Assembly (NCBI RefSeq): GCF_947492555.1
Contig: NZ_CANLNE010000002.1
Span: 487,501 to 551,500 of the forward strand
From: an uncultured Roseobacter sp.
GTDB lineage: Bacteria > Pseudomonadota > Alphaproteobacteria > Rhodobacterales > Rhodobacteraceae
Direction of reading: 5' to 3'
Length of the DNA: 64,000 nucleotides
In this document: positions 7,506 to 33,574 of the stretch, piece by piece
How the letters are laid out: each line of letters opens with the position of its first letter
Position numbering within the stretch: the stretch's first letter is position 1
Translations under genes and position numbers: made by a program
The notes under the pieces: model-generated
What the model saw: the letters and a program-made list of their open reading frames with translations, nothing else
Databases searched by the model: none
What the model was told of the DNA's origin: nothing

Positions 7506-7970
7506 TTAAGCTGCCTGTTCTGATTCCGCTGATGTGAGAATGGTGTGCAGTGTGCCGGGGTTCGGATTCGCCCGAAGCTTTGCACAGATTCCCGGATCGC
7601 GCAGTGTACGGGACACGAGGGCCAGCGCCTTGAGGTGCTCTACACCGGCATCTTCCGGGGCAAAGAGCGCAAAGGCGACGTCAACAGGTTGACGGTCCAC
7701 GGCGTTGAAGTCGATGGGTTTGTCGAGCAACACAAATGCACCCACGACTTTGTCCAGCCCATCAAGCCGTGCATGGGGCAGGGCAATCCCATGTCCAACA
7801 CCGGTGGGCCCCAGCGCCTCGCGCGCCAGCAGCGCGTCGAGAACGTGGCCTGATTTCAGCCCATATGCCTGTTCCGCAAGATCGCCGAGATCTTGCATAA
7901 GGCGCTTTTTACTCGAGGCGGAGGTCAATACCTTCACAGCCTCAGGCTTGAGGAGTTTGTTAAAATCCAT
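7506..7970 (-). CDS. ptsN: PTS IIA-like nitrogen-regulatory protein PtsN
   Basis: EIIA-Ntr, the terminal phosphate acceptor of the regulatory PTS-Ntr chain (EI-Ntr, NPr, EIIA-Ntr), which controls potassium, nitrogen and envelope stress responses by protein contact. The phosphorylated His lies in GIALPHARL. The ATG at 7970 (MDFNKLLKPEAV) gives the usual 154 residues; the frame is open upstream to 7997. It follows hpf by 42 bp on the same strand, in the order lptB-hpf-ptsN. In enterobacteria rpoN precedes hpf at this locus; here it does not. Confidence 0.93.
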   Translation of the reverse strand: MDFNKLLKPEAVKVLTSASSKKRLMQDLGDLAEQAYGLKSGHVLDALLAREALGPTGVGHGIALPHARLDGLDKVVGAFVLLDKPIDFNAVDRQPVDVAFALFAPEDAGVEHLKALALVSRTLRDPGICAKLRANPNPGTLHTILTSAESEQAA

Positions 7971-8012
7971 TCTGCTCGCACTTTCGGGAGGCTCCATCGC
8001 CTCGAAGAAATC

Positions 8013-8579
8013 CTACTGCGGGTCTATCCAGCCAATGTTCCCGTCATCGCGACGGTATACGACATTTAGGCCCTCTTTGCCCTCGTTTCTAAAGACCAGA
8101 ACCGGTGCACCAGCAAGCTCCATCTGCATCACGGCTTCACCTACGGAGAGAGAGGGGATCTTGGTTTCCATCTCGGCGACGATGATCGGTTGCAGTGTCT
8201 CTGGTTCCTGCGCCTCTGAGTCGGCATCTGATGCGAGGATATAGGAGGACGCGCCGTAGATTTCAACCGGTTCCGCCCGATCTTTGTGATGATCTTTCAA
8301 CCTACGCTTGTAGCGACGCAGCTGTTTTTCCATCTTGTCGCAGCACGAATCAAAGGCGGCGTAAATCTCGGTCTGGTGCGCTTTTGCCTGTGCCGTCAGG
8401 CCCGTAGACAAATGGACGGTCGCCTCGCAGACAAACTCATGCGCCGACTTGGAAAACACCACAACCGCTTCGGTCGGGCGTTCGGCATATTTTTTCACTG
8501 CTTCACCCAATTCTTCTTTCACGTGGGTCTGCAGGGCTTCGCCGATGTCGATCTGTTTGCCGCTGATTTGATACCGCAT
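8013..8579 (-). CDS. hpf: Ribosome hibernation-promoting factor, long form
   Basis: Binds the 30S subunit in stationary phase and drives formation of 100S dimers. The N-terminal domain (about 1-100) is the S30AE/HPF fold, beginning MRYQISGKQIDIGEALQTHV, with a basic stretch KQLRRYKRRLKDHHKD. The C-terminal 55 residues (PSLSVGEAVMQMELAG and LNVVYRRDDGNIGWIDP) are the dimerisation domain of long-form HPF. At 188 residues it is typical. The ATG at 8579 has a strong GGAGAG site; the longer reading to 8609 does not. It is separated from lptB by about 250 bp, so it may have its own promoter. Confidence 0.94.
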   Translation of the reverse strand: MRYQISGKQIDIGEALQTHVKEELGEAVKKYAERPTEAVVVFSKSAHEFVCEATVHLSTGLTAQAKAHQTEIYAAFDSCCDKMEKQLRRYKRRLKDHHKDRAEPVEIYGASSYILASDADSEAQEPETLQPIIVAEMETKIPSLSVGEAVMQMELAGAPVLVFRNEGKEGLNVVYRRDDGNIGWIDPQ

Positions 8580-8831
8580 AGTCTCTCCTTCGAATGGTTG
8601 ATCCTGCATCGGGTTTCCGGGCGCAGATACGCCGGGACAACGGGTCAGAGGATCACGGAAAATGGCATTCCATATGATGATTGTCTTCCGGGGCCTTGGC
8701 AGGCAGGCTGATGCGCGGTCAGACAGAAACTGGTACGTGCCATGCCGTCATTGAGCCCGATAACCGACACCAGAGTCAAACAAAAGCGGGTCGCGTGCGC
8801 GGAAAAAAGCGTTAACGCGCGCGCGGCTGGA

Positions 8832-9590
8832 TCAGGAGATTTTGAAGTTGTCGCCGAGGTAGACGCGGCGCACGTTTTCGTTCTCGACAACCTCGTCCGG
8901 GGTGCCCGACATCAGGACGCGACCCTCGTGCAGAATATAGGCGCGATCAACGATTTCGAGGGTTTCGCGGACATTGTGATCGGTGATCAGCACGCCGATG
9001 CCGCGCTTCTTGAGGTCGGCGACGAGGTGCCGGATATCCCCGACGGAGATCGGATCAACCCCTGCAAAAGGTTCATCCAGGAGCAGGTATTTGGGATTGG
9101 CCGCGAGACAGCGGGCGATTTCGACCCGGCGCCGTTCGCCCCCCGACAGGGCGAGGGCAGGCGCACGTCGCAGATGTTCAATGGAAAATTCGCTGAGCAG
9201 CTCTTCGAGCCGTTCGCGGCGCTTGTGACGGTCTGCCTCGGCGATGTCGAGGATGGCGCTGATGTTGTCTTGTACAGACAAGCCCCTGAAAATGCTCATC
9301 TCTTGTGGGAGATAGCCGATGCCCAGTCGGGCGCGACGATACATCGGCAAGGCCGTGACATCCTGCCCATCAATCAGAACGGTGCCGCCTTCAGGCGTGA
9401 CCAGCCCGGCGACGGCATAAAAGGTGGTGGTCTTGCCGGAGCCGTTCGGGCCCAGCAGCGCCACCACTTCCCCGCGCTCCAGGTACATAGAAAAATCGCG
9501 GATCACGGTCTTCTTGCGATAGGATTTTCGCAGGTGCTCTACATGCAACCCGGCAGAGCCTTCGGCGACGGTCAGGGTGGGTCGTGCCAT
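8832..9590 (-). CDS. lptB: LPS export ABC transporter ATPase LptB
   Basis: The ATPase of the LptBFG complex that pulls LPS from the inner membrane into the Lpt bridge. All motifs are present: Walker A GPNGSGKTTTF, signature ALSGGERRRVE, Walker B YLLLDEPFAGVDP and switch His in LITDHNVRE. At 252 residues it fits the family. It starts one base after the lptA stop, so lptC-lptA-lptB is one operon. The permeases LptF and LptG are not in the window. Confidence 0.96.
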   Translation of the reverse strand: MARPTLTVAEGSAGLHVEHLRKSYRKKTVIRDFSMYLERGEVVALLGPNGSGKTTTFYAVAGLVTPEGGTVLIDGQDVTALPMYRRARLGIGYLPQEMSIFRGLSVQDNISAILDIAEADRHKRRERLEELLSEFSIEHLRRAPALALSGGERRRVEIARCLAANPKYLLLDEPFAGVDPISVGDIRHLVADLKKRGIGVLITDHNVRETLEIVDRAYILHEGRVLMSGTPDEVVENENVRRVYLGDNFKIS

Positions 9591-10082
9591 TTAATTGTCG
9601 CCGGTCTGCAGAATGGTCTTTACCGATCCGGCCATCTGGGCGGTGCCAGTGTCGAGCTGCACCGTCATCTTGTCCGCCGTCAAAGCGGAGGGGCCCTGGG
9701 TCAGCAGCACGTTGCCGGTCATCACGATCGTACCATCGTCAATGTTGTAGTCTGCGCGTTCTGATTCGGCGGCATCCGGACCGGACACCAGCGTCACGCC
9801 GCCGGTGGCTTCCATCCGTTCGATCCCTTCCGTGTCTTCGCGGTAAACAACCAGCAACCGTTTGGCGGACAGCCGCATTTCGCCCTGACCGACCACAACA
9901 TTCCCCGTGAACACGGCCTCTCCGGTGTCCTGATCAACCGCGAGATTGTCCGCGGTGACTTCCACGGGAAGACCGGTGTCCTGTTGAAGGCTGCCGAAAG
10001 CAACCTGCGTTCCCTGCGCAAGCAATGCCGACGCGATGGCCATAAGGAAAAGGGGCAGGATAAATATTCTTAACAAAGTCAC
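9591..10082 (-). CDS. lptA: LPS transport periplasmic protein LptA
   Basis: The periplasmic bridge component that carries LPS from LptC to LptD. It has a signal peptide (MTLLRIFILPLFLMAIASALLA, cleavage near residue 22) and an OstA/LptA beta-jellyroll pattern: ITVxADNLxVDxxTGEAVFTGNVVV and a second repeat around IVMTGNVLLTQG. The length, 163 residues, is typical for alphaproteobacteria. It lies directly between lptC (3-bp gap) and lptB. Confidence 0.92.
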   Translation of the reverse strand: MTLLRIFILPLFLMAIASALLAQGTQVAFGSLQQDTGLPVEVTADNLAVDQDTGEAVFTGNVVVGQGEMRLSAKRLLVVYREDTEGIERMEATGGVTLVSGPDAAESERADYNIDDGTIVMTGNVLLTQGPSALTADKMTVQLDTGTAQMAGSVKTILQTGDN

Positions 10083-10085
10083 GGG

Positions 10086-10694
10086 TCAGTCTTTCACCTG
10101 TTTCGGCTGATATATCAGTTTCACACCGTTTGTGAAAACCAATTGAGCCGGCGCGTCCGTTTCGGGCGACATCAGCCGCATGGACCCCGCCACCAGCTCG
10201 CCTGCAGGGGTGGTTGCAAATACTGTATCGGGGGAATGGAGGTCCAAGGCGGCAATTCTCGCTATCAGCGCTTCGCTGGTGATGATGTACCCTTGCGACG
10301 TGGTGATCACAACGTTGCCGGTCAAGTCCGCGACGTCCTGTCCAACGTTAACCCGCGCCGTTTTCGACTTTATGTTCACAGTTGTGCCACCGACCATCTC
10401 GATCTTCACAAAGACATCCTCTGCGCGGTTGGCGCCGGTCAGGCCGTTTGGAGTCACGACTTTCTCCGCCACAAAGGCGATCTTGTCACCGTTCGCCGTC
10501 GTCCCTGAATAATAGGGGCCCGAGATTTGCTGGTTCAGCAGCCGGTCCTGCACCTCGGTGTCGGCGAAGGGGATCGATTCCGTGGGGTCGACGACACGGG
10601 ACAAAAGAAACAGGGTCGAAAGTAGGCCAAGGGCCGCAAGCGGCAGGGCCACTTTCAGCCAGGCCACCGTGCGTGAATACCGATCCCCCCGCAT
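10086..10694 (-). CDS. lptC: LPS export protein LptC
   Basis: Bitopic inner-membrane protein that receives LPS from LptBFG and hands it to LptA. One N-terminal transmembrane helix (about residues 11-30, LKVALPLAALGLLSTLFLL) is followed by a periplasmic OstA-like domain. Sequence conservation of LptC is low, so the call rests on topology, the weak family pattern (GPYYSGTTANGDKIAF, DLTGNVVITTSQGYIITSE) and its place between kdsD and lptA. At 202 residues it is normal. Confidence 0.88.
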   Translation of the reverse strand: MRGDRYSRTVAWLKVALPLAALGLLSTLFLLSRVVDPTESIPFADTEVQDRLLNQQISGPYYSGTTANGDKIAFVAEKVVTPNGLTGANRAEDVFVKIEMVGGTTVNIKSKTARVNVGQDVADLTGNVVITTSQGYIITSEALIARIAALDLHSPDTVFATTPAGELVAGSMRLMSPETDAPAQLVFTNGVKLIYQPKQVKD

Positions 10695-10700
10695 CGTGGC

Positions 10701-11663
10701 CTACCCCAGACCGACGCGCAGACAATCATGGATGCGGATCAGGCCAAGTGGCTTGGCCGGTCCCGTGGTGTCGACCACAAAGAGGCTGGTGATCTGACGG
10801 GCCTGCATCATGGCGACGGCCTTTTCAGCCAGCGCGCCGGGATCGATGGTCACGGGCGAGGGTGTCATGACGTCCTGCGCCGTCAACGACAGCAGCCCGT
10901 CCATATGTCGTCGCAGATCGCCATCGGTGATGATGCCCGCAAGCAGCCCGTTTTGGTCAACAACCCCGACCACGCCAAAGCTTTTCTGGCTGATCTCGAT
11001 CAGCGCATCCGACATCGGCGTGTCAGGGCGGACGAGCGGCAGCTGGTCGCCGGTATGCATCAGGTCCGACACCCGGCTGAGTTGTGCGCCCAGCTTGCCG
11101 CCGGGATGAAAGTCGCGGAAGTTTTCAGGCGTGAAGGCGCGGTGCTCCATCAGCGCAATGGCCAGCGCATCCCCCAGGGCCAGCGTCATCGTTGTTGAGG
11201 AGGAGGGCACGACGCCGGTGCCGCAGGCCTCGCCCAGTTTCGGCAGCAGCAGCACCACGTCGCATTCGCGGCCAAGGCTGGAGCCTTCTGCGCTGGTGAT
11301 CCCGAGCAACGGAATGTCAAAGCGGCGCGCGTAGGCCAGCAGGTTGGCAAGCTCCGGCGCCTCGCCCGAGTTAGATATCGCCAGCACCACATCGGCGCTG
11401 GTGATCATGCCGAGATCGCCGTGGCTCGCCTCTGCCGGGTGCACGAATTGCGCGGGTGTGCCAGTGCTGGCCATGGTGGCGGCGATTTTGCGCGCGATAT
11501 GGCCTGACTTGCCAATGCCGGTGACGATTACGCGGCCATTGCTGTTGAGCAGCAGGTCGATGGCGTCGCGAAACCGCGCATCCAGCCCCTCGGCCAGCGT
11601 GGTGAGCGCATCGGCCTCGGTCCGGATCACCCGGCGGGCCGTATCAAGAAACGGTGTGCTCAT
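10701..11663 (-). CDS. kdsD: Arabinose-5-phosphate isomerase KdsD (KpsF/GutQ family)
   Basis: Converts ribulose-5-phosphate to arabinose-5-phosphate, the first step of Kdo synthesis. It has an N-terminal SIS domain (about 30-180, with RVIVTGIGKSGHIARKIAATMASTGTPA and the HGDLG loop) and two C-terminal CBS domains (about 200-320). Length 320 is standard. The start overlaps the rnd stop by 4 bp. kdsC, the Kdo-8-phosphate phosphatase found between kdsD and lptC in E. coli, is absent here. Confidence 0.95.
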   Translation of the reverse strand: MSTPFLDTARRVIRTEADALTTLAEGLDARFRDAIDLLLNSNGRVIVTGIGKSGHIARKIAATMASTGTPAQFVHPAEASHGDLGMITSADVVLAISNSGEAPELANLLAYARRFDIPLLGITSAEGSSLGRECDVVLLLPKLGEACGTGVVPSSSTTMTLALGDALAIALMEHRAFTPENFRDFHPGGKLGAQLSRVSDLMHTGDQLPLVRPDTPMSDALIEISQKSFGVVGVVDQNGLLAGIITDGDLRRHMDGLLSLTAQDVMTPSPVTIDPGALAEKAVAMMQARQITSLFVVDTTGPAKPLGLIRIHDCLRVGLG

Positions 11664-33325: not shown

Positions 33326-33356
33326 AAAAAAGGGCCGCACCTTGTCAGTGCGGCCC
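33326..33356 (-). terminator. Strong Rho-independent terminator
   Basis: A perfect 9-bp GC stem (GGGCCGCAC with GTGCGGCCC, 7-base loop) runs into TTTTTT on the minus strand. It ends the unit that carries the 18-codon reading frame, 30 bp before arfB. Confidence 0.88.
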
Positions 33357-33428
33357 AATCGAATGGTTTCAGGAGGGGGATCGGTTAGACCGATGTCCAC
33401 TCAGGAGTTCTGCCCGTCAAGGGCTGCC

Positions 33429-33485
33429 TCAGCAGGCGACCTCCAAAGCTGTTCCGACACCTCGCTCCAATACCTTTCTTGACAC
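33429..33485 (-). CDS. Possible 18-residue peptide behind an extreme Shine-Dalgarno
   Basis: GTG at 33485 opens the frame MSRKVLERGVGTALEVAC followed by TGA. The GGAGG lies 7 bases before it, the best possible spacing. An overlapping frame starting at a GTG within it (MSEQLWRSPAEAALDGQNS) also reads through this RNA. Neither resembles a known family. About 70 nt of small hairpins, then the terminator, follow. It may be a leader peptide or a decoy start; only ribosome profiling could say whether it is made. Confidence 0.35.
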   Translation of the reverse strand: MSRKVLERGVGTALEVAC

Positions 33486-33500
33486 TGGATCACCTCCTTT
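33485..33500 (-). promoter_or_regulatory. 16-nt match to the complement of the 16S rRNA 3' tail
   Basis: AAAGGAGGTGATCCAG on the minus strand is fully complementary to the conserved 3' end of 16S rRNA (CTGGATCACCTCCTTT). Ordinary sites pair over 4-7 nt. The last G is the first base of the GTG start of the 18-codon frame. A CCTCCT further down the same RNA (about 33375) could pair with and hide the GGAGG. Confidence 0.8.
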
Positions 33501-33574
33501 ACCTATCTGTTGACGTTGAAAGAATCGTCGCACAGGTTTTGGAAATCACCAAGTGTTTTTTCGTTAACGCAGGT

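Follow-up and report, generated by a model that had tools for sequence, protein, structure and literature searches.

The minus strand of the window (the whole 64,000-nt stretch of DNA analysed, from an uncultured Roseobacter sp.) carries a complement of the 16S rRNA tail directly ahead of a very short reading frame, with arfB as its neighbor, and the question is whether such a locus encodes a peptide, a leader of the adjacent gene or an RNA that acts on ribosomes. The initial annotation, made from the sequence alone, had left these readings side by side.

Organization of the unit

The unit comprises ~190 nt of the minus strand and is flanked by yhhQ (Vut_1 transporter) and arfB (RF-1 domain). 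Alignments delimit a short leader (33501..33520; the match to Rfam model RF01867, CC2171, begins at 33509) within which the 5′ end of the transcript would probably lie; in relatives, the leader immediately 5′ of the Shine-Dalgarno sequence reads CAAC or CAACAACCG in the alignments. A simple sigma-70 scan of the window unit returned no promoter. The leader is followed by the 16-mer AAAGGAGGTGATCCAG (33500-33485), which includes a 14-nt extended Shine-Dalgarno sequence, AAAGGAGGTGATCC (33487..33500), complementary to the 16S 3′ end GGATCACCTCCTTT. After a single spacer base, the last G of the 16-mer is also the first base of a GTG codon (33485-33483), 7 nt from GGAGG, that opens the mini-ORF VSRKVLERGVGTALEVAC (33429..33485; 18 codons, TGA stop at 33431-33429), in agreement with the frame first annotated. 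Equally present as annotated were the hairpin ATCGGT-CTA-ACCGAT (33394-33380), read from the sequence, an internal anti-Shine-Dalgarno element CCTCCT (33376-33371), delineated by folding and by pairing counts across genera, and a strong intrinsic terminator (33326..33356) made of a 10-bp GC stem (33356-33332) and a run of six T. In relatives, pair counts indicate that the CCGAC part of the hairpin can alternatively pair with GTCGG of the ORF. A terminator-like hairpin was identified with our own script in 177 of 179 members. As a separate observation, Rhodobacteraceae-type units carry a GGCAGCC/GGCAACC motif right after the stop codon (33421-33428 in the window), and a number of other lineages have GCAGCC/GCAGTC-like motifs inside the ORF or close to it.

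Distribution among alphaproteobacteria

BLAST recovered the unit in 44 of 99 genomes. These were every one of the 19 genus members, 21 of 40 further family genomes and, as short pieces, 4 of 40 from the rest of the class, one of which (G067) covers the terminator region only. A covariance model (R1), trained on 26 members and applied to 150 genera of the family at a threshold of E 0.01 matched 134 of them, 127 with E below 1e-10 and 7 more weakly, and gave no match in 16. Conservation of the unit in relatives, for which the initial annotation had proposed a covariance-model search, is thus borne out. In a draw of 249 genomes from the phylum, the exact pattern AAAGGAGGTGATCCN(A/G/T)TG occurred in 47 of 88 alphaproteobacteria, once per genome, and in none of 161 genomes of other classes, and the GTG-form 18-mer, with one mismatch allowed, was found in 32 of 241 genomes from an even draw across the class that contains many small, distant families. 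The motif is not universal in the class. A backwards control pattern had no match in the assembly or in the 241-genome and 249-genome pattern searches. The 20-mer AAAGGAGGTGATCCAGTGTC was present in at least 119 stretches of named genomes, and among the 80 matches listed were Bradyrhizobium, Methylobacterium, Bosea, Microvirga, Ancylobacter, Devosia, Brevundimonas, Phenylobacterium, Roseococcus, many Rhodobacteraceae and two gammaproteobacterial contigs. By eye, members from other lineages mostly share the same architecture (CAAC-like leader, 14-mer, start, Ser codon, short frame and terminator). No plasmid match was found at the sensitivity used. Lineage types such as the Rhodobacterales type denote our own grouping by sequence, and loci L179-L181 were excluded from the member lists. 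Counts over related genomes are not independent of one another; the tree-based count of stop-codon changes given below is a partial correction.

Viral contigs also carry the unit or parts of it. The end of contig L354 (IMGVR_UViG_3300038438_000009; 9759-9856) matches the Brevundimonas unit L094 from AAAGGAGG onward and not before, as judged by eye, and the same contig encodes a serine-type recombinase (7906-9615) and a phage-type RNA polymerase; the RNA gene of the unit may serve as a phage attachment site. In contig L352 (11070-11618), a Bradyrhizobium-type unit lies ~0.5 kb from the contig end, after a tyrosine integrase gene (9712-10731), and in contig L350 (37-56) a unit of the same type lies at the edge of the stretch analysed. 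Two loci that are gammaproteobacterial by title (SAR92, Cellvibrionales), L103 (933-952) and L129 (20-39), hold the same 20-mer, closely trailed by CACTGG, which can pair with CCAGTG, and by a GGGAGCC...GGCTCCC hairpin with a T run, an arrangement that is possibly a miniature counterpart of the unit.

Conserved ends and drifting content of the reading frame

Compared among members, the short reading frame looks real, and the annotated GTG start codon is likewise genuine by comparison, with ATG, GTG and TTG interchanging at this position. Among 20 one-mismatch matches in 241 alphaproteobacteria, 18 deviated at the spacer (7) or at the first base of the start codon (11; ATG in 9, TTG in 2 and CTG in none), two mismatches fell inside the 14-mer and none fell on TG. 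Frame length was evaluated on 160 representatives drawn from 210 members, with the ten loci dropped from the helix and lock tests below retained here: the true frame was shorter than 11 codons in none of them, against 43/160 and 50/160 for the other two frames, and its stop came at 12-39 codons in 97.5% (156/160), against 40% of shuffles. The frame had 18 codons in 75 of 76 Rhodobacterales-type members (stops TAG 31, TGA 27, TAA 17), the exception being the 12-codon frame of L028. In the 100-genus sample described below, the start stood at the fixed spacing in 96 units, of which 89 had 18 codons (TGA 46, TAG 33, TAA 10) and 7 had 17, 19, 20 or 24 codons; L322, L330, L343 and L345, in which the start lies 1-2 nt nearer by eye, were left out of the fixed-spacing count. 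In a tree of yhhQ from 63 genomes, a set selected for a stop at codon 19, the kind of stop codon was swapped at least 27 times.

Conservation of start and stop, as looked for in a small protein, was therefore found; purifying selection on amino acids was not, with a pN/pS of 0.80 over 67 distinct Rhodobacterales-type ORFs, and the peptide appears from these comparisons to be hardly constrained. A gene for a small protein, in which the Shine-Dalgarno sequence is unusually strong, the peptide acts in the cell and the RNA structure merely tunes translation, would fit the conserved start, stop and frame, the pN/pS of 0.56 for codons 2-12 and the Ser second codon in 172 of 179 members. We nevertheless regard this reading as unlikely: codons 2-12 double as one strand of the long-range helix described below, where helix and peptide constraint are indistinguishable, codons 13-18 have a pN/pS of 1.04, wrong-frame controls on the same DNA are as low as the true frame (0.65 and 0.79), and between lineages, in frames whose length is kept only within the range given above, the peptides are unlike by eye apart from the start and the Ser codon. 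Because the codons are free, a peptide gene is an insufficient explanation, and the suggestion of a short peptide gene in the usual sense was not supported, since the frame retains its start, stop and length despite drifting amino acids. Conserved ends combined with free content suggest instead that the passage of a ribosome is what matters. A few ordinary genes seem to use the same extended Shine-Dalgarno sequence; L195 (57 codons) and L210 (56 codons) are genes whose start looks signal-peptide-like by eye, and L186 is perhaps another. Peptide strings of one lineage were absent from the main text of a Sinorhizobium Ribo-seq paper.

A long-range helix and a predicted lock on the Shine-Dalgarno sequence

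Nucleotides 4-30 of the ORF (33456..33482, containing TTGGAG) are predicted, from a duplex test and pair counts, to form a long-range helix with the 27 nt before the terminator; in the window, the 3′ strand assigned by the duplex test adjoins the terminator at 33357..33380. For the helix and lock tests, 169 of 179 members were kept and reduced to 125 representatives, leaving out L078, L102, L103, L118, L138, L169, L186, L195 and L210 (unclear terminator position or ordinary-looking genes) and L023, in which the script found no terminator. Mean energy over the 125 representatives was −18.9 kcal/mol for native partners against −12.5 kcal/mol when partners were swapped (p 1e-31, a value that ignores the relatedness of members). 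At every position of ORF nt 10-13, members outside the Rhodobacterales type show all four Watson-Crick pair types, and positions 7-9 show three. In a further alignment (A2), part of the rows are shifted by one base in the 3′ strand, and pair counts taken there understate the helix. Comparison among members thus shows the predicted long-range helix to be conserved. A further helix proposed by RNAalifold, between the Shine-Dalgarno sequence and the T run of the terminator, was judged an alignment effect and omitted when R1 was built.

The annotated CCTCCT element had been taken as a possible internal anti-Shine-Dalgarno, and folding is consistent with that role in one branch. In 46 Rhodobacterales-type representatives, GGAGGTG was predicted to be unpaired at 0.03, against 0.32 in shuffles in which the middle of the RNA was randomised with dinucleotides preserved; its predicted pairing with the distal 3′ part was 0.96, compared with 0.31 in the shuffles. 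In 79 representatives of other types, GGAGGTG was more open than in shuffles (unpaired 0.40 against 0.28). The Shine-Dalgarno sequence is therefore predicted to be locked by an anti-Shine-Dalgarno near the terminator in Rhodobacteraceae-type members, and on the same models this lock is not general beyond that type; compensatory changes are lacking in the lock because its 5′ strand is almost invariant. Across the 100-genus sample, the 3′ part can pair with AAAGGAGGTG over at least 6 bp in 100/100 genera and over at least 7 bp in 96/100, compared with 41 and 18% of shuffles, respectively, and in the list of the 15 commonest partners, CAYCTCC forms accounted for 65/100 and CGCCTCC forms for 14/100. 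In the window unit the internal match is 6 bp, with GGAGGTG predicted unpaired at 0.18. One possible partner for the TTGGAG of the ORF is TCCAG, located before and at the start codon, and another is CTCC in the 3′ element; these alternatives make two mutually exclusive folds possible.

Such a switch around the GGA of TTGGAG, together with the frequency of 7-bp pairing in the family, could be read as a trans-acting regulator in which the CACCUCC-like segment, freed once the Shine-Dalgarno sequence is occupied, covers the Shine-Dalgarno sequences of mRNAs and represses them. As members of other lineages are not closed by a segment of this kind, we consider such a regulator improbable.

Conservation of pairing with the 16S rRNA tail

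The 16-nt match that drew attention to the locus was upheld: in L213 and L214, two genomes of the window's genus, the 16S 3′ end has AAAGGAGGTGATCCAG as its exact reverse complement. In the window assembly the exact 16-mer occurs solely at the unit locus, so that the 16S 3′ end of that assembly was not seen. By simple arithmetic, a given 16-mer is expected 3e-5 times per 64 kb on both strands, and the match is far from chance. The predicted duplex with the 16S tail reached −24.0 kcal/mol for the 14-mer and −26.6 kcal/mol for the surrounding 20 nt, whereas the best duplex among the 67 window ORFs of at least 250 codons, with the best start picked for each ORF, was −14.7 kcal/mol.

To reduce motif-search bias, 100 units detected by the model were fetched, one per genus, from outside the genomes that trained it; these genera, taken from the 134 matched, were new to the member set, and nearly all had strong scores. 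All of the fetched units were recovered (100/100). AGGAGGTG was invariant in 100/100 genera, and the 14-mer was exact in 53 and had a single change in 35. Among 63 substitutions within the 14-mer, 33 were A11 to G, which retains a G-U pair with the tail. With G-U allowed, pairing extended over 14/14 positions in 87 genera, over 13 in 8, 12 in 3 and 11 in 2, shares that are partly biased, as the covariance model and the pattern searches themselves reward the Shine-Dalgarno motif. The sequence comparison supports selection on pairing between the Shine-Dalgarno sequence and the 16S tail.

An AGGAGG-bearing RNA could also be a sponge that binds and removes anti-Shine-Dalgarno sRNAs. Candidate targets of this kind exist in alphaproteobacteria, as SmelA075 and RS0680a are described with CCUCCUCCC loops in the accessible part of one report (PMC3927594) and SisA-D are described as sponged by CrfA in Caulobacter in that of another (PMC12559287). 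Conservation in the unit nevertheless extends through GAUCC, which belongs to the complement of the 16S tail, and substitutions mostly preserve G-U pairing, while the quoted CCUCCUCCC loops lack the rest of the 16S tail and a sponge would need neither start nor stop codon, all of which makes this explanation distinctly improbable.

Genomic neighborhood

In all 19 loci of the genus, yhhQ lies 5′ and arfB lies 3′ of the unit, and this is the usual order elsewhere in the family. The gap between the unit and arfB varies among family loci, and a search of 1.5 kb downstream found no arfB in two genomes of the family (L023 and L041, which are one genome, and L039). At ten loci of other lineages, 8 of 18 neighboring proteins had a Pfam match, none of them common between loci and none of them arfB or yhhQ. 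The constant position before the gene that a leader would occupy was thus not found. In the window itself, arfB begins ~26 nt past the terminator T run on the same strand, as would suit a leader or attenuator of arfB, but with a variable gap, two family genomes with no arfB in that interval and different neighbors elsewhere, this reading is highly improbable, and the tie to arfB drawn in the initial annotation was not supported. In one relative (L027, 1-950), three partial arfB-like matches were seen besides a full-length arfB within the same 3 kb. Chance or a stray 16S fragment, suggested by the 16-mer being the 16S end read backwards, is refuted by conservation of the unit, which is kept in place across genus and family with its start codon and terminator, and by the fact that the 16S copies examined continue as AGCCGCAGG or AGCCGCACG and units do not.

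Relationship to the CC2171 family

Against RF01867, the window unit scored 36.9 bits (E 1.5e-6 for 275 nt), below the gathering cut-off of 75, and aligned to model positions 1-159 of 159 (33509-33331, minus strand). It was the best match of the model in its whole genome (E 5.6e-6), in a lax search (E 10) that also gave matches in 10 of 14 control genomes, above the cut-off in 1. The cut-off was reached by 7 of 17 loci and then by 1 of 20 further loci (8/37), all with the same architecture. The full-length alignment includes AAAGGAGGUGAUCCAGUGUC and the terminator. Across the 125 representatives a helix is supported where the model has its consensus CAUUGUC/GACAAUG before the terminator, but in other letters, and several of the model's pairs are broken in the window; the window unit also differs from CC2171 in its predicted lock. 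Rfam types the family as an sRNA gene and its scan output holds no ORF, whereas the window unit has a frame. We treat the window unit as a probable diverged branch that shares the CC2171 architecture, and not as a member by Rfam's own rule, a kinship based on a subthreshold full-length match and common architecture. The window unit and 29 of 37 other scanned loci fall below the cut-off, which suggests that the Rfam model misses branches, although a few of the 29 may not belong, such as the gammaproteobacterial L103 and L129.

CC2171 reportedly originates from Landt 2008, and no stated function for it was found in the open-licence literature. In Mesorhizobium, a relative assigned to CC2171 (MH_s33) yielded a sequenced product of 215 nt in a screen that obtained products for 34 of 35 predicted nonriboswitch sRNAs, according to the available portion of that study (PMC5596092), and CC2171 also appears in the consulted part of the Rfam 15 paper (PMC11701678). 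Ribosome profiling in Caulobacter, as far as the excerpted report goes, classed intergenic noncoding RNA regions as untranslated with two exceptions (PMC4117421). The terms “peptidyl-tRNA hydrolase” and “CC2171” are absent from the main text of sRNA papers on Ruegeria and Paracoccus (PMC4809877, PMC5107571). StsR of Rhodobacter, described in the part of the source at hand as 72 nt long with UpsM and rpoE as partners (PMC8307010), does not fit the unit.

A candidate ribosome-responsive small RNA

The unit is best read as a stand-alone sRNA gene, representing the Rhodobacteraceae-type branch of an alphaproteobacterial RNA that has some CC2171 relatives in other orders. Pairing, start, stop, length and helix are conserved in the sequence comparison; from them, we infer transcription in the window organism, 30S binding, translation and an output. 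We think it rather likely that the RNA is translated and responds to ribosomes, and that ribosome loading, not the peptide, is under selection, a reading that rests on the maximal Shine-Dalgarno sequence, the kept start and stop, the short frame, the stable fold, the unit's own terminator and the lack of a constant neighbor. The initial interpretation thus survives with respect to a conserved unit, a selected pairing, a predicted closure by an anti-Shine-Dalgarno and a genuine start, and lacks support with respect to arfB and a peptide gene of the usual kind.

On this ribosome-loading reading, the RNA would act as a miniature mRNA that captures the small ribosomal subunit. The 14-nt Shine-Dalgarno sequence would pair with the 16S tail, a start codon would follow at fixed spacing, and the short frame with its conserved stop would release the captured ribosome, so that the selected property would be the loading and transit of a ribosome and not the peptide. 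In the Rhodobacteraceae type, a segment near the terminator that looks like the 16S tail (mostly CAYCUCC or CGCCUCC) may fold onto the Shine-Dalgarno sequence and keep the RNA closed by default until a free 30S subunit, which offers a longer duplex, opens it. Translation would then break up the long-range helix in which the 3′ part is held. As an output, the RNA could titrate 30S subunits or, when ribosomes are free, expose its 3′ part. This role was not found in print in the open-licence literature. If the reading is true, bacteria use an RNA to titrate or sense free small subunits, and the translation of a meaningless ORF as a regulatory output becomes directly testable. For the CC2171 family, the comparison also yields a concrete idea, namely an RNA with a constant core complementary to the 16S tail and a frame kept for its ends and not its content.

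Comparison with known systems

More tentatively, the unit may be a ribosome counterpart of 6S RNA, in which a best-possible binding site followed by a sequence-neutral mini-ORF competes with mRNAs for free 30S subunits; the Rhodobacteraceae type, self-locked by an internal partial copy of the 16S tail, would sense idle 30S subunits and change conformation on binding. 6S RNA imitates the ideal binding site of RNA polymerase. The likeness would be one of idea only, a central machine being mimicked in each case (RNA polymerase there and the 30S subunit here), and the window unit differs in having a reading frame.

The dual-function attenuator RNA rnTrpL/peTrpL of Sinorhizobium is another alphaproteobacterial small RNA with an ORF (14 codons in rnTrpL); rnTrpL is described in the accessible text as leaderless and as part of the trpE attenuator (PMC10117765), whereas the window unit has a maximal Shine-Dalgarno sequence and no fixed downstream gene. 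With SmelA075/RS0680a (PMC3927594) and SisA-D of Caulobacter (PMC12559287), as presented in the portions of those papers available, the unit shares an anti-Shine-Dalgarno segment, but in the window this segment is predicted to pair internally, and it is the opposite strand that dominates, as a full Shine-Dalgarno sequence. Finally, Staphylococcus aureus mRNAs with extended Shine-Dalgarno sequences resemble the unit in start-proximal extended pairing during initiation; as far as the consulted part of that report describes them, they are mRNA start sites and small ORFs (PMC13009471), whereas the unit described here appears to be a conserved RNA whose peptide is hardly selected.
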